Below are positions 2,207 to 15,200 of a stretch of DNA of 64,000 nucleotides, in pieces. The stretch's first letter is position 1, and every line of letters starts with the position of its first letter. Below the pieces are notes generated by a model. That model was given only the letters and a program-made list of their open reading frames with translations. It searched no databases and was not told the DNA's origin. Source of the stretch: Acidobacteriota bacterium (GTDB taxonomy: Bacteria > Acidobacteriota > Holophagae > Acanthopleuribacterales > Acanthopleuribacteraceae); NCBI GenBank assembly GCA_020439745.1, contig JAGQSC010000050.1, positions 248,001 through 312,000 on the forward strand. The letters run 5' to 3'. The position numbers and the translations under genes are program-made.

Positions 2207-2298
2207 GGAACCCTCCGCGAAACTGCTTCTCACTATTGTACTTGAATCGAATTCAGTGCTGGTATGATTCCAAGGTCAAAACTGAGGCGGAATGTACT

Positions 2299-5200
2299 GT
2301 GGGTGTGTATTTATTGTTCATTTTTACAGGGGCTATCGGGGCTCTCGTGATCGCCAGGTTCGTCCTCGGATGGCAACCAAATCCGGATCAAAACGAAGAT
2401 ACTACCGATGACATACCTGCTGATATCTACCAATTGGCCAGCGAACTGGACGGCGTTTTTCAGGCATCAGCACAGCCTGCAGATCTTCTGAATCAACCCA
2501 AATTCCATCAAGCCATTGAAATCCTCACGAGTCCTGATATCTCACAGGATCAAGTGCTGGGATATGCACGTGGCGACAATAACCTGCTTATCTGTGTGGC
2601 GTTGGCTGCCCTGAAAAAACGCAACGAAAAGCCACCTCGCACCGATGAAGTGATCGCACTTATCGGAAAAACTTATGCTTGGCAGATCTACTACGCCCTT
2701 GATTACCTTGCCGACAAGCCCGACGATCATATGGTCGTCCGCGTTTTGGGAAAAATTCAGCATTGGTGGCCCAACCCTGCTTTCTTCCCCGAAATGATCG
2801 CCAACTTCATCAAGGCTCGATTGAGCAGAAACGAGTCGCTCGAAATCGGTTCCCATTTCGATCATTTAGACGATGATGAGCTCGAGTGTATGGAGCAACT
2901 ACTCCAGTCCATACCTCAAGTCGCTGAGTCGTTGGTGGCTTCGCTTAAGAAATACAAAGAGCACAGATTAGATCGCGACTACCTGAAATCCATCGGTCGA
3001 TTGATGGACAGCGATTCCCAAAAGGTGGTCAGCCACCCCGTCTTTGAGCGAAACCTGGCTCAACTCAGGGATTGGACGCTATCGACGAATCCCAGATCCG
3101 TGATGATCGTTGGCGAGTCAGGATGCGGCAAAACCACTCTTGTCAAACATTTCGCGCAACAAGTACAGGCATCTGGATGGACCCTTTTCGAGGTGGCCGC
3201 TCGCCAGATCGTCGCGGGACAGTCCTACATAGGCGAACTCGAGGAACGGGTCCTAAAAATGTGTGAAAAGGCGACGCGTTCAAGAAAGGTCATTTGGTTC
3301 ATACCTGATTGCCACGAGCTCTTGCTGGCAGGTGCCCACCGTTTCAGTCACGGTGGCGTTTTGGATATGCTGCTGCCATACGTGGACGAGCAACAGATCC
3401 TCGTTATTGGCGAAACCACGCCTTCAGCTTATGAACAGTTGGCCCGTCAAAAACCTCGTGTCAAACAAAGTCTTGAGCCGCTGAACATGCAGCCGATGTC
3501 CAAACCCGAAGCCATTGACTTGTTGGGTCAGGTTTTCGAGTCGGAAAAGGACCTTATGACCGAGGCCGTTGAAATGGCAACCATGTATCTGGCCGATACC
3601 GAACTTCCGGGAAACGCCATGAGATTGGTGCGAGCTACACAGGAACGATTGGCCAAGAGTTGTGCTCCCTTCACCGCTCAAGAACTTCTCACATCGCTTT
3701 CGCAGCTCACGGGGCTACCTGTCGCTCTGCTCGACGACCGAGTCCCTCTAGACCTCGAGGTGGTGCGCCACACGTTCCTAAAACGAGTACTTGGCCAAAA
3801 CGACGCCGTTGACGTGCTGGTCGACCGCATCGCAATGGTCAAGGCGGGCGTCACAGACCCCTTGCGCCCCTTAGGGGTATTTATGTTTGTGGGACCCACT
3901 GGCACGGGTAAGACCGAACTCGCCAAGACACTGGCAGAACTGCTCTTTGGCTCAGAGAACCGAATCGTCAGATTCGATATGAGTGAATTCAAGACAGCCG
4001 ACGCGATCTCTCGAATTCTCGGCGGATCAGATGAACAAAGACAACAGGTTAGTCTCACCACTTCCATTCGACAACAGCCGTTTTCAGTCATCTTGCTGGA
4101 CGAATTTGAGAAGGCACACCCCAATATCTGGGACCTATTTCTACAGGTGTTTGATGACGGGCGTTTGACCGATGTAGCCGGCCGAACTGTCGATTTTCGA
4201 TACACCATGATCATTATGACCTCGAATCTGGGCGCTGCAGTACCCAGTGGTATGTCCATCGGGTTCAGCGGAGATCAAGGCACATTTTCCGCACATCAAG
4301 TGATGAAAGCCATGGCCACTACCTTTCGTCGGGAATTCATGAACCGCATTGACCACATTACCGTATTCAGACCTCTATCACGCCAAACGATGCGTCAAAT
4401 CCTCTATCACGAACTCGATCGAGCACTGATGCGACGCGGCCTGAAATCCAAATCATGGGCGGTGGAGTGGGAGCCATCGGCCATTGAATTCCTATTAGAC
4501 AAGGGGTTCACCCAAGATCTGGGAGCCCGCCCATTGCGCCGGGCAATCGAACACCATCTTCTGGCCCCGCTCGCGCGAACCATTGTTTCCCGTTCCACAC
4601 CAGAGGGTGACCAGTTTCTCTTTGTAAGGGCGCTGGGCGACCAGTTACAGGTCGAGTTTGTGGATCCAAACCAGGAAGACCAGGAGTCTACCGCGGATTC
4701 ATCACCTTCATTGAGTCTGGCTCAGATTTCCTGGCAACCCTCAGCTTCACCTGCGGTCATTGATTTGCTCAACACTCATTTGCAAGCGCTCGAGCATCGG
4801 ATCAATGATCAAGCATGGCAGAAAGACAAAGATCAATTACTCAGTCAAATCAACCAATCGGGTTTCTGGAATCGGCCAGACCGGTTCAACACACTCGAGG
4901 CGTTTGAAGTACGTGATCGCTTGGAAATGGTGTGTCGCACCCTAACTTCGCTGGCCAAACGCATCAAACCAGGAAGTGCATCACAGCCTGTGGTTGAAAT
5001 GGCACATCGCTTGAGAATGTTACCTCAGGCCATGGATGACATAAGCTCAGGCTTGTCCCAGGACGCGTGCCTTTGGATTGAATGGGATTCCTCGCACGAT
5101 CCTCACCCATTTGCCGAGCGGCTAAAAGACATGTATCTGGGATGGGCAGCCTCCCGCGGCATTCGCGCTTCTGTAATGCCCCTACCAAAAGCCAGGCTTA

Positions 5201-5523
5201 TGACGATGATCGGTCTTGGCGCTTATGCCGTTTTGAAAAGCGAAACCGGACTGCACATTTGGGAGACAGGTGAACGGCCCAAACAGCGTGAGCGTATCCA
5301 GGTTCGAGTGTGGGTCGTGCGCCATCTGCCGGGAACCGAGTTGACACCCGAACTCCTGAACCAGCTTATGTCCGACAGCCGTCCTCAGAGTTGGGAAATC
5401 GTACGACGATACCGCGAGCAACCCTCCCCTCTCATTCGCGATACGAAACATGGTTGGAGAACCGGGAAACTGGACAAGGTCTTGGCTGGTGATTTCGACT
5501 GTGTGCCCAACACAAAACCTTGA
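2299..5523 (+). CDS. Membrane-anchored Clp-type AAA+ ATPase with C-terminal RF2-like domain
   Basis: About 1074 residues from GTG 2299 (GAGGCGG eight bases upstream); the frame is open to TTG 2236. A transmembrane helix (residues 2-25) replaces the usual Clp N-domain and is followed by about 240 helical residues. AAA module 1: Walker A GESGCGKT at about 272, pore loop SYIGELEER at about 309, but Walker B reads FIPDCHEL instead of the usual FIDELH. AAA module 2: Walker A GPTGTGKT at about 532, intact LLDEFEKAHP, a ClpB D2-small-like GARPLRRAIE, but no GYVG pore loop. Residues from about 835 resemble peptide chain release factor 2: FWNRPDRF, MYLGWAASRGI, AYAVLKSETGLH, and at the end IRDTKHGWRTG...LAGDFD. 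The GGQ segment between the last two is absent. It sits just upstream of a T6SS operon and may be its ClpV/TssH relative, but it lacks the ClpV N-domain. Substrate unknown. Confidence 0.85.
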   Translation: MGVYLLFIFTGAIGALVIARFVLGWQPNPDQNEDTTDDIPADIYQLASELDGVFQASAQPADLLNQPKFHQAIEILTSPDISQDQVLGYARGDNNLLICVALAALKKRNEKPPRTDEVIALIGKTYAWQIYYALDYLADKPDDHMVVRVLGKIQHWWPNPAFFPEMIANFIKARLSRNESLEIGSHFDHLDDDELECMEQLLQSIPQVAESLVASLKKYKEHRLDRDYLKSIGRLMDSDSQKVVSHPVFERNLAQLRDWTLSTNPRSVMIVGESGCGKTTLVKHFAQQVQASGWTLFEVAARQIVAGQSYIGELEERVLKMCEKATRSRKVIWFIPDCHELLLAGAHRFSHGGVLDMLLPYVDEQQILVIGETTPSAYEQLARQKPRVKQSLEPLNMQPMSKPEAIDLLGQVFESEKDLMTEAVEMATMYLADTELPGNAMRLVRATQERLAKSCAPFTAQELLTSLSQLTGLPVALLDDRVPLDLEVVRHTFLKRVLGQNDAVDVLVDRIAMVKAGVTDPLRPLGVFMFVGPTGTGKTELAKTLAELLFGSENRIVRFDMSEFKTADAISRILGGSDEQRQQVSLTTSIRQQPFSVILLDEFEKAHPNIWDLFLQVFDDGRLTDVAGRTVDFRYTMIIMTSNLGAAVPSGMSIGFSGDQGTFSAHQVMKAMATTFRREFMNRIDHITVFRPLSRQTMRQILYHELDRALMRRGLKSKSWAVEWEPSAIEFLLDKGFTQDLGARPLRRAIEHHLLAPLARTIVSRSTPEGDQFLFVRALGDQLQVEFVDPNQEDQESTADSSPSLSLAQISWQPSASPAVIDLLNTHLQALEHRINDQAWQKDKDQLLSQINQSGFWNRPDRFNTLEAFEVRDRLEMVCRTLTSLAKRIKPGSASQPVVEMAHRLRMLPQAMDDISSGLSQDACLWIEWDSSHDPHPFAERLKDMYLGWAASRGIRASVMPLPKARLMTMIGLGAYAVLKSETGLHIWETGERPKQRERIQVRVWVVRHLPGTELTPELLNQLMSDSRPQSWEIVRRYREQPSPLIRDTKHGWRTGKLDKVLAGDFDCVPNTKP

Positions 5524-5657: not shown

Positions 5658-6113
5658 ATGAAGCGAATTGGACTCGTTTGTATCAGTGTCGCCGCCTTTT
5701 TTTCGTGCGGACCGAGACCCTTCTCCAATCTCTATTTGCTCAGCCTACCAGAAACCAATGAAGGCCGAGCAATGCCATTGCACGTGGTCCCTGTGGATAA
5801 CATGTTGATGGTCAAGATAACCAACGTCAAACCTGAAGAATGGTTTGTAAGTGAAATGATGGAAACCACTTCTGGGATCAAGAAACGCGTGCTTCAAGGC
5901 GCCCAATCAGAATTAGTCAAAATCGAACGCCAGAACGATCGCAATGATTTTGTGGTGATTGTGGACTATGCCGAATCCGAAAGCGTGGACGCACAACGCA
6001 TAGTGATCGGCGAAAAGTACCATAAAGCCAAGGACATATACATTCTCGTGTCAAAAGATGCTATTCGAATCGTAGACAAAAAAGTCTACGAAGACTTCAA
6101 GCGGTCCATGTAA
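5658..6113 (+). CDS. tssJ: T6SS outer membrane lipoprotein, TssJ-like
   Basis: A 151-residue protein with a lipoprotein signal: MKRIG start, hydrophobic core, then AFFSC with Cys17 as the likely lipidated residue. Size, position directly before tssK-tssL-tssM and the lipobox fit TssJ, the outer membrane lipoprotein that binds the periplasmic part of TssM in the trans-envelope complex. The mature part (LYLLSLPE..., FVVIVDYAE, IYILVSK) is predicted to be beta-rich. Sequence similarity to the textbook TssJ family is weak by eye, so the name rests mainly on context. It starts at ATG 5658 with AAGGAG eight bases upstream and heads the operon behind a near-consensus promoter. Confidence 0.7.
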   Translation: MKRIGLVCISVAAFFSCGPRPFSNLYLLSLPETNEGRAMPLHVVPVDNMLMVKITNVKPEEWFVSEMMETTSGIKKRVLQGAQSELVKIERQNDRNDFVVIVDYAESESVDAQRIVIGEKYHKAKDIYILVSKDAIRIVDKKVYEDFKRSM

Positions 6114-6123
6114 CGGAGCGACC

Positions 6124-7473
6124 GTGTCAACTGGGCGACATATCAATTGGTCTGAAGGTCTGTTCATTCAGCCTCACCATTTTCAGCAGTCATCATTGCA
6201 AGTGGACGGCGAAATCGGGGACCTGATCCGAGATTATCAAACCCACGGTTATGGTGTGGCTCATATCAAAATATCTGAAGCAGACTGTGAGAACTACGTC
6301 CTCAACGTGCTGGAACTCGATTGTCGTTTGACCGACGGTACGCGAATAAGCTTTCCGGAGAACTGTGTGGTGGAGTCGCGCAGTTTCAAGGACGTCATCG
6401 ATACCTATCAGGGCCGCGTTGAAGTCTTCTTGGGTTTACCGCTGATCACTGAACTGGAACCCAACTGCTTGAGATTCAATCAAACACCCATGGGTGGGAT
6501 CAAATATCGCTATATCACCAAAATGGTTGAAGTCAACGACATCAACACCGGTTCTAACCCCCAACAAGTAGAGGTTCGACTGTTCAATCCGCGCTTGTTG
6601 TTTTCAGGGGAGTCTACCTACGGTTATGAATGTGTCAAGATCGCGGAGGTCGAACGCTCAGCCAAATACGGAAGTACACCCAAAGTGCGCAAAGACTATG
6701 TGCCACCGACCATCACCCTGCAATCATCACCCGCTCTCCTGCACATCCTTCGCGAGACTGGCAGCCGACTCATCGCCAAGAACCGAATCTTGAGGGGTTA
6801 TTGGAAGAGTAAAAGTACAGCCACTCTGATGAAGGCTCGCGATGCCTTGAAGGTACAGGCCATTGCCGCGGCAACCAACGCGTTCATGCAGTTCACAAGC
6901 ATGAGCCGCATCCATCCATTTCCGGTCTATCTCAAAATGGTCGAGGTGGTGGGCATGCTATCCATCTACTCCGATAACGACGCGCATGTCGAGGTGCCCA
7001 CCTACGACCATGATCATCTGGGTGATTGTTTTGCCAAGGTTGAACAGTGCATCATCAAGTTGTTGGCCATGCTCGAGGAAGCCAGCTTCGAGTCTCGGGT
7101 ATTCGAACCCAAAGACGGCATGCTGGTCTGCCCGATGGAAACCTCGTGGTTTGATGAGAAATATGACCTGTACATTTGTTTTGAATCCAAAGTGGATGAT
7201 GCAGAGGCTGGCCGACAAGTGTACGGACTAAAAGTATCCCCTGAAAGCCATATGGCGCTCTTGAATCAGCGGCGGATTCGCGGCATGGACATGGAGGGCC
7301 CCATCCATCACCTGCCCGCACTTCCAGCTTCCCCCAACCATCATTATTTCAAGGTTTCGCGCCAGCACCCCTTGTTCGAAAAGCTACGCGAAGCGCCAAC
7401 CCTTGCCATTTGGGGACCCTACCAGTTCTCCGAGCTCACCACCTTGTATGTGGTTGAGAAAGCTGTCTCATGA
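6124..7473 (+). CDS. tssK: T6SS baseplate adaptor TssK
   Basis: A 449-residue protein starting with GTG ten bases after tssJ ends. The N-terminal signature INWSEGLFIQPHHFQQ is the hallmark of the TssK (ImpJ/VasE) family, and the length is usual. TssK forms trimers that connect the baseplate (TssF/TssG) to the cytoplasmic domains of TssL and TssM. The C-terminal region around FKVSRQHPLFEKLREAPTLA fits the family's end domain. It is soluble and cytoplasmic with no signal peptide. Confidence is high. Confidence 0.95.
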   Translation: MSTGRHINWSEGLFIQPHHFQQSSLQVDGEIGDLIRDYQTHGYGVAHIKISEADCENYVLNVLELDCRLTDGTRISFPENCVVESRSFKDVIDTYQGRVEVFLGLPLITELEPNCLRFNQTPMGGIKYRYITKMVEVNDINTGSNPQQVEVRLFNPRLLFSGESTYGYECVKIAEVERSAKYGSTPKVRKDYVPPTITLQSSPALLHILRETGSRLIAKNRILRGYWKSKSTATLMKARDALKVQAIAAATNAFMQFTSMSRIHPFPVYLKMVEVVGMLSIYSDNDAHVEVPTYDHDHLGDCFAKVEQCIIKLLAMLEEASFESRVFEPKDGMLVCPMETSWFDEKYDLYICFESKVDDAEAGRQVYGLKVSPESHMALLNQRRIRGMDMEGPIHHLPALPASPNHHYFKVSRQHPLFEKLREAPTLAIWGPYQFSELTTLYVVEKAVS

Positions 7474-7497
7474 CTTGACAACCAAAGGTGAAACATC

Positions 7498-8202
7498 ATG
7501 CATTTACGCGATGTCATCGTGGACCTGTTTCTATTTGTGGCCACCTTCAAAGAAAGACTAGAACAAGGTACGCCACCAAGTCTCGAAGAGGTGTACCAAG
7601 AAGTTCGCACCATATTCGGTACCATGGACCAACAGGTACTGGCTGATAGCGTGTTGAAATCGCGCTACGACCGAATCCGGTTCGGTCTGGTTGCATTAGT
7701 CGACGAGGTGATAGTCACATCTACTTGGCAGCATGCGCCTCAATGGCCGGTTCTGGAGATGGAGTTCTATGGGACCAAAGTGGCGGGTAACAAGTTCTAC
7801 GATTTTATTGCCGAACTGACCGCAGCGGACAAAGAACTGATTGAAGCGTCCTTCTACATCCTGGCATTGGGATTTCGCGGGGCCTATGTATTTGATGAGT
7901 CCCGCTGGGAACAGACCATCACCATCCTCTATCAACAACTTCCCAATCCCATTGGCCAAGAAAATTTCAAGCTCTCACCGGAGGCCTATCACGTCATCAA
8001 GAAAAAGGCACAGCGGCTGGATCCTCTGTTTTCCCTAGGTCGTTCCGTCATTATCTTTATGGCTACCCTGTTTTTGCTGGCGATTTTTTACCAAGTGGTT
8101 TGGTCCAGCATCGTGAGTGAAATTAAAGACAAATCGGAACAGGCCAAATCACAAGTTCAAGATGAAGATCTACGCGAATCACTGAAGGAGACCGACCTGT
8201 GA
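7498..8202 (+). CDS. tssL: T6SS inner membrane protein TssL (DotU/IcmH family)
   Basis: A 234-residue protein of the DotU family. The cytoplasmic helical domain shows the family pattern (VIVDLFLFVATFKERLEQG near the start, RIRFGLVALVDEVIVTSTW, then LEMEFYGTKVAGNKFYDF). A single transmembrane helix lies near the C-terminus at about residues 182-200 (SVIIFMATLFLLAIFYQVV), followed by a short charged periplasmic tail. There is no peptidoglycan-binding OmpA-like extension, so cell wall anchoring must come from elsewhere. Its stop overlaps the tssM start (GTGA), which suggests translational coupling. Confidence 0.93.
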   Translation: MHLRDVIVDLFLFVATFKERLEQGTPPSLEEVYQEVRTIFGTMDQQVLADSVLKSRYDRIRFGLVALVDEVIVTSTWQHAPQWPVLEMEFYGTKVAGNKFYDFIAELTAADKELIEASFYILALGFRGAYVFDESRWEQTITILYQQLPNPIGQENFKLSPEAYHVIKKKAQRLDPLFSLGRSVIIFMATLFLLAIFYQVVWSSIVSEIKDKSEQAKSQVQDEDLRESLKETDL

Positions 8203-11200
8203 GTAAGCTACTCGATCTGTTTCGCTTGATTCCCGGAACTGGCCGCGTGATTAGCCTGTTGATCATCATCGGTGGCGCCATCTTTTTTGTCTACTACCGC
8301 TTTGGTACGATGCCTGCCGTTTTCCTGGCCGGCGGCATCCTCGTAATCTTCCTATTGATCTTCATTTATAACCTGGTGCTCAAAGCCAGCGAGCGCCAGA
8401 ACGGCATTGCCTTCGGAAAAGCCATCAGCAATGCCCAGGTAGGCGCATCCAGTGAGGAAGTAAAATCAGCTGTAAGCGCTATGGCCCAGAAATGGCGCGA
8501 AGCTAATGTCAACCTGAAAACCGCCGGTTTGGACATGTACACGCTGCCCTGGTACATGTTGATTGGCGAACCACAGTCAGGCAAGTCAACCACGCTCAAG
8601 TTCTCAGGCATCAAGTTCCCCATTGGTATGGAATCGATTTCAGGTGGCGGCGGAACACGAAACTGCGATTGGTGGTTCACCGAACAAGCAGTGATTTTGG
8701 ATACGGCCGGGCGCCTAACGTTTCAGGAAGAAAATGCCACCGATGCTGCCGAATGGAACCACTTTCTCAATCTGCTGGCAAAACACAGGCCCTACTGCCC
8801 TATTAACGGCGTGATGCTGGTTATTCCCGCAACATCCCTTCTAGGCGATGACGCCGCAACGCGACATATGAAAGCGCGCAACATCAGTGAAAAGCTGCTC
8901 AATATTCAGCGCACGCTTTCGATTCAATTCCCTGTATTCGTGGTGATCACAAAGGCAGACACAATTTATGGCTTCACTCAATTCTTCAACAAATTGAATG
9001 TGGATCAACAGCGCGAGATGTTTGGATGGTCCAGTCCTTCGTTGGAGTCCGGCTTCAACATCAATACGTTTGATCAAAGCTTTGGCCAACTGATTGAACG
9101 CGTCGACCAGATCAAACGCCGCAATCTCAGCCGAACCCACTATTCAGACGACGCCAACAAAACTTTTATTTTCCCTGAAGAGTTTCGCGCCCTTTACCAA
9201 CCTCTGCGTGAATACATGAGCATCATTTTCGAAGACAGTGTGTATCGCGCTCCTATGTTCTTTCGTGGCTACTACATCACGTCAGGCATGCAGGAAGGCC
9301 AGCCCATAGCCAGTGCCTGTAAGGCGCTACTCAAGAAAGGGACGGTCATACCCAACCTGGAGCAGGTCTTCACCAAATCGCGTGCCTTTTTCATTCGCGA
9401 CTTCTACACCGAGAAGGTCTTCCCCGAAGAGGGACTGGTACAGCGAGCGTTTCATCACGTACGAGCCGACAAGATCAAGCGGCGATTAATTTATGGGTTG
9501 AACATCAGCTTCGTCGTGCTCGGTGCCCTGTTCATGGTGCTGATGTATCGCAATCTCAATGCGAGATTGGCCGGACCAAAACGAACCATCGACGAAACAC
9601 TGATTTTGTTGGCGGACAATCAAGGTACCTTCTTTACCAGTGACGATGATCGTGAAGAAATCTTCAAGAACCTTAAGAACCTGCAGTCAGCCATCACCAT
9701 TGGACAAGCGGGAGGCAGCTTCAACTTCTTTAAAGGAAAACAGAATGCACTTACGGCCCACCTACAGGACACGTTTTCATACGTGTATTTGGACCGTTTC
9801 CTTGTAGGTCTATACGACTCGGTCGTACAACAACTGGCAGCATTTGAGCAGCAATCCCCTCAGACGCCAAGAAACAGTGACGCCGAGTTGACCCTGTTGC
9901 TCCATGCACTGGCCGAAGTCAATAACTGGCGCTATCACAGTAAGAACGACACGCTGGATGAGCTGAAACCATCACTTCAACCATTTCTTGCGTTGGCACT
10001 GGATCCCGAATGGAATAGCGACCTGGCTTCCCATTTGGTTTCATTGAACCTACAAGAACAACTAGAGCAGTGGTTTCAGGAAGTCCATGCCCGCAGTTCG
10101 GACGAAGTAAAAGGGTTTGTCATTCAGGCACTCGTTCATCGCTCCGAACAGTTGTTTCAAGGATTGGACAAGGCGGTGCTTGACTTCTACGTCAATCAGC
10201 CAGAAATGCAGCGATACCTTGAAAAACTCAAGGTCCTCGAAGAGTTAGACAGCGCCTATGCAGAGACACTCGTTTACATTTCTCCCAGTGATTACCACGA
10301 GAAACTCATGCGTTTTGCCTCCTATTTCTCGCCCGAAAACCAAGAAATGCTGGGCCCGGGCGGCGATCAATACTTGAAAATACCCGAAGTGGTTGAACGC
10401 ACAGCCAAAGCTTTAGGTACACCATACGACAAGGTGGGTACGGCTGACGAAAAACTCAACTCCCGCGACCGCAAGCGTCTGGAACTGCAACCGGATACCG
10501 CAACTTTTATGCGCGCCCTGCGGGCGTTTGACCCAAAAAATTACCGCGATCCGCGCGCTGAGCGGGAAGGCGATGTCCCCAACCCTGAAGGTCTTACCTA
10601 TTCCAAAGAAATCAAATCGTTTTGGGATGAATTGATCAAAGGCTACGCTGAGGTCATTGCCAAGAGCAACAACCCCTATTCAGATCTTCCCGAAGTCGGA
10701 GCCGGCCGGGACGCATCGATGGACAGCTTGTTTACCCGGGGTTATGAACGCATGGTGGTGATTGCCCAAATGAGTGGCCGCGGCATCAATGCTCATGTCG
10801 GCGTAATGACAGACAGCGGCAACTCACGCTTGCTGGAAAAAAACATTTTGGATTACACAGCATCCTTAACCAAGGCCGAACGCAAATTGTTCTCCGATGC
10901 GTTTGTTCGGTCCATGGGCGAGGACACATTGAAGGTGCCACCCCCTTCCTCTTCCAATTGGAGTTCGATTGTCGAGGATTTGCGTCAGAAAACAGATCGG
11001 GGCAGACATGCAGACTGGTTCCTGACACCCGCTGATGAGGTGAAGTCGGTATTCCGCCAACATAACCGTGAAGTGGAGACCATTTTCGGGACTCTTGCCC
11101 TCACATCCATGAACCAGTACACCAGGGACGTAGAAGACCACACCAAACGCTTTTATTCGGCGGTCCAGGGTCTGGCAAACATCAATCAAGTCGATTTGGC

Positions 11201-12068
11201 TCAGAATCGAGGACAGTACACCAACAACATTCCAAGAGACATTGAGGATTTTGCCGATATCGGCGTTGAGGAAACGCCGTACTTGGAGATGCACCGTGTA
11301 TCGCTGGACGCTTGGTCGCGCGCGGTCATCGATGCATTTCTAAACTATGCGGGAAACGTGGATCCCTGCCCGGAATGCAGTCGTGACCTGAACGAAATTC
11401 GGACGCTTGCCAAAAATATTGGCAATGCCTTTCCCGTGGCAACCCGAAACGTGATGAAAATCAACTACGACGAATTGGGCCTCGCCAACGCTTGGATCAC
11501 AACCGCACGCGAGGACGATCTCACAAAATTGGTCGCCGCAATCGAGAAGTTTCGTTCTCCAGATGCGACGCGCTCGCGGTTCTTAAAGAACAAGCGGCTG
11601 GAAGCTAGAATGGAACACGCGCTTGCATGGTCAGATACTGTCAGGAAGCTTCAAGATGGTACGCTGACACTGCGTTACAAGTTGGAACCTTCCGTGGAAG
11701 CAGATGCTGCATCCCGTGAATTCACGTTCTGCGACCTGAAAGGCTACTTCACTGCACGCCGTATTGCGTTGAACTCACCGGCTTATCGAGATATCACCGT
11801 CAATCCTGACACCGAGTCCAACAACATCAGTGCTGCATTCAGACTATTCAACGACACGGAAGGCAACGACTCCGAGTCTCGCATCGTAGTCCATGGAAAA
11901 GCGCTGGAGCTGTTTGGTTTCGTGTTGGCAGATATGAATCAAGGTTCCGATACGTACGACCGCCAATTGGATGTTCCCCTCAACTACGCCAATCGTACCG
12001 TCAAGGGCCTATTCCGATTCAGGTTCTCTGAACCGGTCACACTACCGCCCAACTGGAGCGATTTTTAA
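8199..12068 (+). CDS. tssM: T6SS membrane complex protein TssM (IcmF family)
   Basis: A 1289-residue protein. Two N-terminal transmembrane helices (about residues 16-60), a cytoplasmic GTPase-like domain with Walker A GEPQSGKST at residues 123-131 and DTAGRL near 168, a third transmembrane helix at about 430-450 (LNISFVVLGALFMVLMY), and a long periplasmic region. This is the TssM/IcmF layout. The C-terminal beta domain (after about 1150) is where TssJ docks in studied systems. The nucleotide-binding motif is intact, whereas some TssM proteins have lost it. The GTG start overlaps the tssL stop. Length is in the usual 1100-1300 range. Confidence 0.95.
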   Translation: MSKLLDLFRLIPGTGRVISLLIIIGGAIFFVYYRFGTMPAVFLAGGILVIFLLIFIYNLVLKASERQNGIAFGKAISNAQVGASSEEVKSAVSAMAQKWREANVNLKTAGLDMYTLPWYMLIGEPQSGKSTTLKFSGIKFPIGMESISGGGGTRNCDWWFTEQAVILDTAGRLTFQEENATDAAEWNHFLNLLAKHRPYCPINGVMLVIPATSLLGDDAATRHMKARNISEKLLNIQRTLSIQFPVFVVITKADTIYGFTQFFNKLNVDQQREMFGWSSPSLESGFNINTFDQSFGQLIERVDQIKRRNLSRTHYSDDANKTFIFPEEFRALYQPLREYMSIIFEDSVYRAPMFFRGYYITSGMQEGQPIASACKALLKKGTVIPNLEQVFTKSRAFFIRDFYTEKVFPEEGLVQRAFHHVRADKIKRRLIYGLNISFVVLGALFMVLMYRNLNARLAGPKRTIDETLILLADNQGTFFTSDDDREEIFKNLKNLQSAITIGQAGGSFNFFKGKQNALTAHLQDTFSYVYLDRFLVGLYDSVVQQLAAFEQQSPQTPRNSDAELTLLLHALAEVNNWRYHSKNDTLDELKPSLQPFLALALDPEWNSDLASHLVSLNLQEQLEQWFQEVHARSSDEVKGFVIQALVHRSEQLFQGLDKAVLDFYVNQPEMQRYLEKLKVLEELDSAYAETLVYISPSDYHEKLMRFASYFSPENQEMLGPGGDQYLKIPEVVERTAKALGTPYDKVGTADEKLNSRDRKRLELQPDTATFMRALRAFDPKNYRDPRAEREGDVPNPEGLTYSKEIKSFWDELIKGYAEVIAKSNNPYSDLPEVGAGRDASMDSLFTRGYERMVVIAQMSGRGINAHVGVMTDSGNSRLLEKNILDYTASLTKAERKLFSDAFVRSMGEDTLKVPPPSSSNWSSIVEDLRQKTDRGRHADWFLTPADEVKSVFRQHNREVETIFGTLALTSMNQYTRDVEDHTKRFYSAVQGLANINQVDLAQNRGQYTNNIPRDIEDFADIGVEETPYLEMHRVSLDAWSRAVIDAFLNYAGNVDPCPECSRDLNEIRTLAKNIGNAFPVATRNVMKINYDELGLANAWITTAREDDLTKLVAAIEKFRSPDATRSRFLKNKRLEARMEHALAWSDTVRKLQDGTLTLRYKLEPSVEADAASREFTFCDLKGYFTARRIALNSPAYRDITVNPDTESNNISAAFRLFNDTEGNDSESRIVVHGKALELFGFVLADMNQGSDTYDRQLDVPLNYANRTVKGLFRFRFSEPVTLPPNWSDF

Positions 12069-12077
12069 GGGTCGCGT

Positions 12078-13076
12078 ATGAGTTTGTTTTCCTTCCGCAA
12101 GAACACCATCAAGTTTCCCGAGTTCACCATAGGCGTGTTTGGCAAGCTGCCTTTTTATAAAGACTTTCTTTACAGTAGCTTCGACAAATCCTATTCAGAT
12201 CTCCGAGATGCATTTGACCAGGGTTTTGATACGTTGATTCGGTCGCAGGCTGACCGACCTTACGTCCTTCCAAGTCGGGGATTCCTGGTGCATATGCCGA
12301 AAACAAAAGTCGATCTTGTAGGTTGTATCTGGGAAAGCGATGACGGCTTACGCGGTTTCCCCTTTATGATGGCCTGCGTTTTTCCGCGCAAACTCAAATC
12401 GTCTCCCTTCCATATCTTCTGGCAAGCACTGGAAGCCTATTGGAAATATTTCAACGCCTATTACCAAGACTTGAAGGCCCAAGAAAACCCGGGCGAATTC
12501 TACAAACGAGTTCGCGGCATTGTGCATGCCTTGCCTTCGATTGAAGCGGCGGTATGGGAACCGGAGCCCGGTGACGCCATCGGTGCATCGGTCCAGGAGG
12601 GTTTCCTAACCCCGGTGGATTTGACAGGTAAAGCGCCTTTCGAAGAAGCCGCAATATTGCGGTCCATTGCGCTTAAGGACAATCCGTCCTTTGTGTTGTG
12701 GCCCAGTAAGAATTGGGCCGAACGAGATAATCTGTCGGTTACTGGTTACTTGGGTAGCAATGGCTTGGTTGACTTAAGATTCACTTTTTTCTTGCCGGAA
12801 CGAATGGAAGAGACAACCGAATTAGATGGCGATGAAACGGCTGAACTGGAATTAGCCAAACTTACATCTCATCCCAATCACGACGAAGTGCGCGAAGCAT
12901 TGGACTCCGATGAGGAAGCGGACGCAGAAACGCTCCGCATATCCCGAGCGTTGGCACACGCAAAGGAAATCGGCGCACTTGATGACGCGCCAGATACGGC
13001 TCAAATGGAAACAAAAAAGAGCGAAGACGATATTGAAACCACAAAGATGCCCATTGACCGCGACCAATACAAATGA
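12078..13076 (+). CDS. tagF: T6SS-associated protein TagF (ImpM family)
   Basis: A 332-residue cytoplasmic protein. The N-terminal region (residues 17-150: VGVFGKLPFYKDFL-type opening, RGFLVHMPK, CIWESDDGLRGFPFMMACVFP) matches the TagF/ImpM domain. In Pseudomonas, TagF holds the T6SS inactive until it is relieved by the PpkA/PppA phosphorylation pathway or other signals; no kinase or phosphatase partner is in this window. The last 80 residues are an acidic, low-complexity tail rich in Glu and Asp, unlike the compact family members. It lies nine bases after tssM and nine before tssA. Confidence 0.88.
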   Translation: MSLFSFRKNTIKFPEFTIGVFGKLPFYKDFLYSSFDKSYSDLRDAFDQGFDTLIRSQADRPYVLPSRGFLVHMPKTKVDLVGCIWESDDGLRGFPFMMACVFPRKLKSSPFHIFWQALEAYWKYFNAYYQDLKAQENPGEFYKRVRGIVHALPSIEAAVWEPEPGDAIGASVQEGFLTPVDLTGKAPFEEAAILRSIALKDNPSFVLWPSKNWAERDNLSVTGYLGSNGLVDLRFTFFLPERMEETTELDGDETAELELAKLTSHPNHDEVREALDSDEEADAETLRISRALAHAKEIGALDDAPDTAQMETKKSEDDIETTKMPIDRDQYK

Positions 13077-13085
13077 GGAAGTTCC

Positions 13086-14684
13086 ATGGATCTAACGACC
13101 GTTAAAGAGATCTGCCTGACGGACATACCGGGCGGCGATCCATGTGGTGAAGACCCTAAATACGATACAACCTACGAGTCCATTCGCGAGGAGATTGCCA
13201 AAATGGCCGGCATCGGTCGGGGCGCTACAGATTGGGAGATGGTTGTCCGTGATTCCCTGCAACTCCTTCAAAACACAGCCAAAGAAATCAACCTGATGAT
13301 CTATCTGGCCACGGGCCTGGCCCACACCCAAGGATTTTCGGGATTGTTGCTCGGTGTAGAAACCGCCAATGAGTTCATCCACAAATACTGGGATAACATG
13401 CATCCCAACCTCAAGAAAATCAAGATTCGCGGACGGGCACTGGACTGGTTAAACGAAAGGTTGGTGGAACTGAGGGACCAGGGGAAACTGGACACAAAAA
13501 GCCGCGAAGACCTCAAACAGGGAATCGATCTTCTCGACGCCTTTAAGAACAACATCTATGAACGGTTTGATGATCCCCCCTCCAATTTCAAGGCACTTCG
13601 CAACTGGATGGAAGAGGTACTTTCCCAAATACCAGAACCCAAACCCGAGCCTCCACCGCCCCCTCCCGCTGCCGAATCAGATGAATCAGCAGACACGTCA
13701 GAGCCGAAGTCGGCACCTTCACCTCAGCCCGCAGCCAAAGCCCCTACCCCAACCACGATTGAGGTGGCTGCACCCGTTGTGGGTGAAGATGCATCTCTCG
13801 GTGAACTCATGGCCGCGTTGCAGCCGATCGCACAGCAGATACTCGCTCAAGCACCGAAATCATCCATCGGTTACCAGTTATTGAGACAAACCATCTGGGC
13901 GGAAGCCAAACTACCCAATCATCAAGACAATTTTGAGACATTCATTCCGGCACCGGCTGATGAAATAAGAGACAGCCTTAAATCCATGTTTGGCAAAGCC
14001 AATTGGGAGTCACTGCTGCAGCGAAGCCAGGATCTAGCTCTGCGCTTCCCACTTTGGATGGACCTCCAGTTCTACGCCGTCACAGCTTGTCAAAACCTGG
14101 GTGAAAGCTATGGCGCCGCCATGCGCGCCATCCAGTTTGAAACCCATCAACTCAACGAGCGATTCCCCAAGCTCATTCAACTCAAATTCGATGACGGTTC
14201 GCCGTTTGCCTCCACGCAAACTCGTGACTGGATGGGTCAACTGGCCCAACAAATCGGCGGCGGCGGCGGTTCAGTCGACGACCCGGTGGCAGCCATGAAG
14301 AGTGCACTCATGCAACGGGGTACCGAGGCATTCGCGGAAGCATTGGCCGAGGCGCAACAAGCCATAGCAACCGCAACCTGTCCACGAGATGCCATTCGGA
14401 TGCGCGCTGAGGTAGCCGGATACTGCCTGGATGCAGAACAGCCACAATGGGCATACGCCACCCTACATTCATTGGCACAACAAGTGGATTACTATCACAT
14501 CGATCAATTCGAACCCCAACTCTCAGCACGTATCTGGTCACTACTCGTGAGGTGCTGCCGAGAGCTCAAAGGTGAGACAGGTCCTTATCAAGAAACAGAA
14601 CGCATGGCAATGGCTCGACTAACGGCTGTCGATGTGAGCCTTGCTGGCGAACTGCGAGTGGCCAAGAATCCTTTTGGAGACTAG
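13086..14684 (+). CDS. tssA: T6SS protein TssA (ImpA family)
   Basis: A 532-residue protein. The ImpA N-terminal domain is clear: DIPGGDPCGEDPKYD, a helical stretch with GRGATDWEMVVRDSLQLL, and YWDNMHP near residue 100. A Pro/Ala/Ser-rich linker follows at about 178-225 (EPPPPPPAA and similar), then a second helical domain. TssA proteins prime tube and sheath assembly and cap the distal end of the sheath. Which TssA class this belongs to cannot be settled by eye. It is the last gene of the operon; the next promoter begins nine bases after its stop. Confidence 0.9.
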   Translation: MDLTTVKEICLTDIPGGDPCGEDPKYDTTYESIREEIAKMAGIGRGATDWEMVVRDSLQLLQNTAKEINLMIYLATGLAHTQGFSGLLLGVETANEFIHKYWDNMHPNLKKIKIRGRALDWLNERLVELRDQGKLDTKSREDLKQGIDLLDAFKNNIYERFDDPPSNFKALRNWMEEVLSQIPEPKPEPPPPPPAAESDESADTSEPKSAPSPQPAAKAPTPTTIEVAAPVVGEDASLGELMAALQPIAQQILAQAPKSSIGYQLLRQTIWAEAKLPNHQDNFETFIPAPADEIRDSLKSMFGKANWESLLQRSQDLALRFPLWMDLQFYAVTACQNLGESYGAAMRAIQFETHQLNERFPKLIQLKFDDGSPFASTQTRDWMGQLAQQIGGGGGSVDDPVAAMKSALMQRGTEAFAEALAEAQQAIATATCPRDAIRMRAEVAGYCLDAEQPQWAYATLHSLAQQVDYYHIDQFEPQLSARIWSLLVRCCRELKGETGPYQETERMAMARLTAVDVSLAGELRVAKNPFGD

Positions 14685-14692
14685 CTTTCAAG

Positions 14693-14721
14693 TTGAAAAT
14701 CGTTGATTTCAAACATATAAT
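14693..14721 (+). promoter_or_regulatory. Strong sigma-70 promoter of the RRM protein gene
   Basis: TTGAAA at 14693-14698 and a perfect TATAAT at 14716-14721 with the optimal 17-base spacer. It lies directly behind the tssA stop and implies independent, strong expression of the RNA-binding protein. Confidence 0.75.
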
Positions 14722-14870
14722 CCGTATCGTTCGAGTAAAGAGCTTCAGATACTCTAAACTGATCTCAGCTTCATGGGTTGTCAGAAGGAACTGAATCGAA
14801 CGCGCGCTCGGCGCCAACACCCCCTCGACAACCCGCTGTCATTGAGCACGGGAAAGCACAAGGAGTTCAG
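14722..14870 (+). promoter_or_regulatory. Structured 5' leader of the RRM gene
   Basis: About 140 transcribed bases lie between the -10 box and the start codon. GGGTTGTC at 14775-14782 can pair with GACAACCC at 14827-14834, enclosing 44 bases that contain a further GC-rich palindromic stretch. A long, foldable leader on an RNA-binding protein gene suggests temperature control or autoregulation. That is inference; no known riboswitch was recognised. Confidence 0.4.
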
Positions 14871-15200
14871 ATGTCTACGACTAAGTTGTTTGTGGGAAAT
14901 CTTCCGTTTTCCACTACAGAAGAAGAAGTGCGTGCACTTTTTCAGGAAATTGGGGAAGTTCAATCAGTGAACCTGATCAACGATCGCGAAACCGGCCGTC
15001 CCCGTGGCTTTGGTTTTGTTGAATTATCAACGGAAGTTGCTCAAGTGGCATTGCGCGAGTTCGACGGCATGGAATTCAACGGCCGCACTTTGCGCGTCAA
15101 TGAAGCCCGTGAGCGAGAGCGCCGCGAGCGTCCGTTCCGCGGTGGTGATCGCGGTGACCGTGGTGACCGCGGTGGCGACCGAGGACATCGCCGCTACTAA
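14871..15200 (+). CDS. RNA-binding protein with one RRM domain
   Basis: A 109-residue protein from ATG 14871, preceded by AAGGAG. A single RNA recognition motif fills residues 4-80: RNP2 is KLFVGNLPF and RNP1 is RGFGFVEL. The C-terminal 30 residues are Arg/Gly/Asp-rich (repeated GGDRGDRGD-type units). This is the layout of cyanobacterial Rbp and other bacterial glycine-rich RRM proteins, which bind RNA and are often cold-induced. The frame is open 31 codons further upstream, but that region is better read as an untranslated leader. A strong terminator follows. Confidence 0.93.
   Translation: MSTTKLFVGNLPFSTTEEEVRALFQEIGEVQSVNLINDRETGRPRGFGFVELSTEVAQVALREFDGMEFNGRTLRVNEARERERRERPFRGGDRGDRGDRGGDRGHRRY

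Follow-up and report, generated by a model that had tools for sequence, protein, structure and literature searches.

We report that a gene in the window, a 64,000-nucleotide stretch of an Acidobacteriota bacterium genome (assembly GCA_020439745.1, contig JAGQSC010000050.1, positions 248,001 to 312,000 of the forward strand), encodes a Clp-type AAA+ ATPase that ends in a domain homologous to release factor 2 (RF2). The protein, hereafter Clp-RF2, is built of four parts, a membrane helix, an alpha-solenoid, two Clp-type AAA+ modules and the RF2-like domain (Table 1). This architecture is well supported, and the function proposed below is inferred from it. The original prediction had seen in this protein a release factor shell without catalytic power, attached to a membrane-anchored double AAA+ engine, and that description holds, as the RF2 fold is kept and the GGQ (peptidyl hydrolase) domain is absent. 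The reading that we favour from the sequences is that the RF2 fold has been reused as a protein adaptor.

Taken alone, the C-terminal part of the window protein matched PCRF (PF03462; E 2.4e-4) with 21.4 bits, slightly below the Pfam cut-off of 24 bits, and another stretch of it matched the end of the RF2 profile prfB (TIGR00020; E 6.4e-6). The two matches follow each other as in RF2, and the motifs first recognised by eye in RF2 order are where they had been placed. In a single-sequence phmmer search of the PDB, RF2 was matched at E 0.003. Because these matches were modest, relatives were sought. All nine aligned C-terminal domains matched PCRF (best 4e-10) and prfB (best 3.9e-9), and seven of them matched prfA, more weakly than prfB. 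Searched against the PDB, the profile of the nine reached E 4.9e-13 with RF2 and about 1e-10 with RF1; profile-profile comparison of the family with RF2 gave 97.8%; and in two genomes a larger family profile also recovered the canonical RF2 gene (E 7e-18 and 9e-16). An AlphaFold model of the domain, built with 17 members (predicted local distance difference test score (pLDDT) 93.2, predicted template modelling score 0.89), contains four helices, the PCRF sheet and the C-terminal segment. RF1 or RF2 accounted for all 50 listed fold matches in the PDB (best E 3.3e-13); their TM-scores were 0.40-0.55, values that we explain by the absent domain and by domain movement. Both the profile comparison and the structural model proposed as checks thus point to release factors. 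The C-terminal domain, which has the PCRF/codon-recognition fold of a class-I release factor, is truly homologous to RF2.

We compared the 17 family members with four RF2s, using the numbering of the RF2 from locus L039. Residues invariant in RF2 that are kept in 16-17 of the 17 members are W27, M129, Y130, G163, L170, E173, G175, H177 and R191 and, in the C-terminal part, R302, Y304, P308, D314, V327, L328, G330 and D333. They sit in the fold core and the C-terminal strand, and the C-terminal (domain 4) segment is the best-conserved part of the whole RF2-like domain. The GGTE decoding tip and the SPF motif are not kept in these members, and the GGQ domain is absent from every one of them, with roughly 25-40 residues in the place of about 95 in RF2. 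Where about 25 residues remain, about 70 are missing; the loss had been predicted correctly, at a slightly larger size of about 75. The hydrolase domain of bacterial release factors is an insertion within the codon-recognition domain (PMC6514570), so that the family can be described as RF2 minus the GGQ insert and minus the reading tips. Judging from the presence of the RF2-specific FW motif, the insert was more likely excised than never gained.

As all decoding tips are lost, stop-codon reading by the RF2-like domain is very unlikely, and a canonical RF2 is additionally present in all ten checked Acidobacteriota genomes that carry the Clp-RF2 gene. A looser contact with the ribosome is possible. 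It could serve ribosome quality control at the membrane, an explanation that we consider somewhat unlikely. The RF2-like domain would then still dock on ribosomes, at the A site or the stalk base, and bring the AAA+ motor to stalled ribosomes, where it would extract nascent chains or dislodge factors; the loss of GGQ would make the domain a non-releasing binder, by analogy with the catalytically inactive Dom34. Both the codon-recognition core and domain 1 of RF2, the GTPase-interacting domain (PMC6514570), are kept, and ribosome binding is on record for other release-factor relatives that are inactive (PMC6514570). However, the GGTE loop and SPF went together with GGQ, and no translation or rescue gene was found as a conserved neighbour among the Clp-RF2 loci. 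Recognition of the ribosome or of the tRNA exit, one of the two roles first suggested for the domain, is weakened for the former reason, and because the retained residues belong to the fold core and the C-terminal strand. We think it improbable that Clp-RF2 is a membrane-tethered ribosome quality-control unfoldase whose GGQ-less module picks out stalled or specialised ribosomes at the membrane and feeds their nascent chain to the Clp motor and from there to ClpP.

The rest of the protein is a Clp-type motor. Pfam detected two Clp-type AAA+ modules and a ClpB D2-small domain (PF07724, E 3.6e-48; PF10431, E 1.1e-14), and the ClpA model matched at E 3.6e-92; together with the N-terminal helix seen by hydropathy, this bears out the predicted membrane anchor and double AAA+ engine. 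The helix is found in nearly all family members with a complete N-terminus and is usually followed by Arg or Lys, for which reason the body of the protein is predicted to be cytosolic. In members with a readable D1 the Walker A motif is present and the Asp-Glu pair of Walker B is replaced, typically by P-D or P-N, while the pore-loop aromatic residue is mostly kept across the family. In one Rokuibacteriota member (L060:7400-9000) the N-terminal half is frameshifted or misassembled, and its D1 motifs cannot be read. D2 is intact across the family for Walker A, Walker B, sensor 1, the Arg finger and sensor 2; the GYVG (tyrosine) pore loop is absent from it. The two intact Walker B motifs and the tyrosine pore loops in both rings that are expected of Clp/Hsp100 proteins are thus lacking in the family. 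Judged by these motifs, D1 binds ATP but probably does not hydrolyse it, and D2 looks active in hydrolysis.

At the position of the ClpA loop all members, across phyla, carry the tripeptide [ILVP]GF (PGF in two), whereas ClpB relatives in the same alignment do not. ClpA docks ClpP through IGL/F, and ClpB and Hsp104 have no such motif (PMC5540906). The retention of the tripeptide argues against a stand-alone membrane disaggregase or remodeller that works without ClpP, in which the release factor-like domain would merely stabilise or regulate the hexamer. Such a protein would fit with the missing pore tyrosine of D2 and with a bulky C-terminal domain, which would lie on the ClpP-docking side; on balance it seems to us rather improbable.

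The first genome scan, queried with the window protein alone, gave no match; with the family alignment as query, a genome-wide scan located the gene at 20 loci whose hosts are named. In a set of 297 genomes from the same phylum we found eight orthologues of the C-terminal domain (E 1e-29 to 1e-38), each within a Clp-type open reading frame of more than 1100 amino acids (aa) save where the contig ends, and in a larger draw the gene was present in 10 of 396 genomes. The hosts are Acidobacteria (including Candidatus Polarisedimenticola), Rokuibacteriota, Calditrichia, Planctomycetota, Gemmatimonadetes, Burkholderiales, Xanthobacteraceae, Gammaproteobacteria, Solirubrobacteraceae and the isolate Pseudoxanthomonas helianthi 110414; most members come from metagenome assemblies. 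The same four-part architecture occurs in at least about 27 species of several phyla. This, the significant profile and fold matches and the cultured isolate already refute a chance resemblance or an assembly fusion, an explanation prompted by the modest matches of the window protein alone and now of negligible likelihood.

The scattered occurrence of the gene suggests that it was transferred horizontally or lost repeatedly. Nothing in plasmids, phages or viral contigs matched the C-terminal domain, and a plasmid or phage gene was rejected as an explanation; with the full-length query, the matches in plasmids were ClpB or similar Clp ATPases. No neighbour recurred across phyla among 19 loci of the gene; the neighbours are mixed, with MutS- and UvrA-like proteins among them by a reading of their sequences. 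Clp-RF2 is a stand-alone gene family.

In the window genome, 134 bases separate the Clp-RF2 gene from the first gene of a type VI secretion system (T6SS) operon downstream of it (TssK-L-M-A). The downstream genes are TssK, TssL, TssM and TssA and two without a Pfam match. The adjacency that had been predicted is therefore real, and Clp-RF2 could belong to the T6SS, for instance as a second ClpV-like sheath recycler. This is highly improbable, and a T6SS role as the function of the family is already refuted. TssK and TssC are absent from seven of the eight other genomes with Clp-RF2 orthologues, so that the tabulation of T6SS co-occurrence proposed at the outset, like the search for shared neighbours, turned out against a link. 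The window genome has a full, true ClpV beside TssBC on another contig, and Clp-RF2 scored 262.7 bits with the ClpV/TssH model TIGR03345, for which the cut-off is 884.95. In a genome of the same genus (G001) the first genes of the same operon are 73-86% identical and different genes lie upstream; no family member was found in that genome. Given the orthologue genomes mostly without T6SS, the G001 operon without the gene and the lack of conserved neighbours, we regard the adjacency as local.

Several lines of evidence lead to the docking reading: the homology to RF2, the loss of GGTE, SPF and GGQ, the AAA+ motifs, the [ILVP]GF tripeptide, the membrane helix, the spread without a partner gene and the canonical RF2 in all ten genomes. 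Clp-RF2 would be a Clp/Hsp100-family remodeller with an RF2-derived module (domain 1 and the codon-recognition domain) grafted after D2. It would form a hexamer at the cytosolic side of the membrane, in which D2 would be the motor and D1 an ATP-clamped scaffold ring bearing the pore-loop aromatic. Substrates or partner proteins, and not stop codons, would dock on the solenoid and the release factor-like domains, and at least some members may use the conserved [ILVP]GF loop to pass substrate to ClpP. The protein would thus act as a stand-alone accessory quality-control factor and not as part of a T6SS. As a whole, this picture of a membrane-tethered Clp remodeller with a non-decoding docking module and a possible hand-off to ClpP is, in our judgement, evenly poised between right and wrong.

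Several points weigh against it. The partner, the substrate and the oligomer are all predictions. The G-F tripeptide, which is PGF in two members, could be an inherited relic, and six domains of 270 residues after D2 might block ClpP. Threading may be weak without the pore-loop tyrosine of D2. Finally, the conservation of domain 1 and of the C-terminal strand exceeds what a generic scaffold would need, and a ribosomal or release factor-like contact is possible.

Both halves of Clp-RF2 are of known kinds, a Clp/Hsp100 ATPase and a degenerate RF2. With RF2 (prfB) it shares the FW helical bundle, the PCRF core, the IRxY...P...KD...VLDGDxD segment and the overall fold; it differs in having no GGQ domain, SPF or GGTE loop, in standing behind a membrane Clp ATPase and in coexisting with a canonical RF2. 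With ClpA/ClpC and ClpB (Hsp100 class 1) it shares the two Clp-type modules and the D2 motifs, the [ILV]GF loop being ClpA-like. In contrast to them, it has a membrane helix and a solenoid instead of the Clp N-domain, has lost the D1 Walker B, has no GYVG pore loop in D2 and has gained the RF2-like domain. ClpV/TssH belongs to the same Clp family, and its T6SS is a neighbour of Clp-RF2 in the window only; Clp-RF2 scores far under the ClpV cut-off and most carrier genomes have no T6SS. AAA+ proteases of the FtsH type are membrane-anchored quality-control motors; Clp-RF2 is likewise a membrane-anchored AAA+ motor, but of the Clp-type double-ring kind and without a protease domain in the chain. 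PrfH and ArfB are also derived from release factors and act outside normal termination, and both keep the catalytic Gln (PMC6514570). Clp-RF2, unlike them, keeps the complementary part, without the hydrolase domain.

Neither Pfam nor NCBIfam has a model for the combination of a Clp ATPase with RF2, and anti-phage ATPases in PADLOC matched the AAA modules only (best DolB, over residues 508-665). A survey of bacterial release-factor paralogues (PMC6514570) makes no mention of the fusion, and no description of it was found in literature searches, whose scope was papers outside subscription. Here, in several phyla, a class-I release factor keeps its codon-recognition scaffold, loses decoding and catalysis, and would serve a Clp motor, apparently an exaptation of the core translation machinery for a protein-handling machine. 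If the RF2-like domain docks on ribosomes, Clp-RF2 would link translation surveillance with membrane proteolysis in bacteria. Its function is directly testable, as the cultured host P. helianthi carries the gene.

Table 1. Features of the Clp-RF2 gene, in window coordinates.
Feature	Position	Strand	Description or basis
Whole gene	2236..5523	+	Open reading frame of 1095 aa; membrane helix, alpha-solenoid, two Clp-type AAA+ modules, RF2-like domain
Single N-terminal membrane helix (VGVYLLFIFTGAIGALVIA)	2299..2355	+	Hydropathy
All-helical N-domain, HEAT/armadillo-like solenoid, conserved	2407..3090	+	Model with pLDDT 87
D1 Walker A, GESGCGKT	3112..3135	+	Sequence motif
D1 Walker B position, VIWFIPD, without the Asp-Glu pair	3289..3309	+	Sequence motif
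D2 AAA+ large and small subdomains	3865..4614	+	Pfam match, motif alignment
IGF tripeptide at the site of the ClpP-docking loop of ClpA	4258..4266	+	Alignment; PMC5540906
RF2 domain 1-like four-helix bundle with RF2-type FW motif	4750..5046	+	AlphaFold model, fold matches, RF2 alignment
RF2 domain 2 (PCRF) core: MYLGWA..RG, G.GAY..L.SETGLH; without GGTE and SPF tips	5065..5322	+	Profile match, RF2 alignment
Short linker replacing the GGQ (peptidyl hydrolase) domain	5323..5397	+	AlphaFold model, RF2 alignment
RF2 C-terminal (domain 4) segment, IVRRYREQPSPLIRD...WRTG..D.VL.GDFD	5398..5502	+	prfB profile, RF2 alignment

The first possible start of the gene is the TTG at 2236; a GTG nearer 2299 is equally likely. 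A fold search with the model of the solenoid returned only generic helical repeats, with no significant structural match. In three genomes of the same family (G003, G005 and G006) there is a tandem of three Clp-type ATPases, two of about 1100-1165 aa and one of about 755 aa (L021:4357-13462, L022:5686-14632 and L023:5210-14174), in which D2 likewise has no GYVG loop. The long tails looked faintly release factor-like by eye (AWLWFGAELGLHAWH), but the profiles gave no support, and we make no claim of RF2-like domains for them.

The T6SS of the window genome is split between TssK-L-M-A (window 5658-15200) and TssBC with ClpV (contig C60 of G000), whereas in G001 TssK adjoins TssBC on one contig, which suggests a rearrangement. 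A small lipoprotein-like gene between the Clp-RF2 gene and TssK (5658-6113), without a Pfam match and 73% conserved in G001, is plausibly a divergent TssJ. On the other side of the Clp-RF2 gene, a large divergent gene on the minus strand (2-2233) matches von Willebrand A weakly (E 0.042) and is unrelated to the von Willebrand A gene near the orthologue in G267. Directly after TssA, the window encodes an RNA recognition motif protein (14778-15200).
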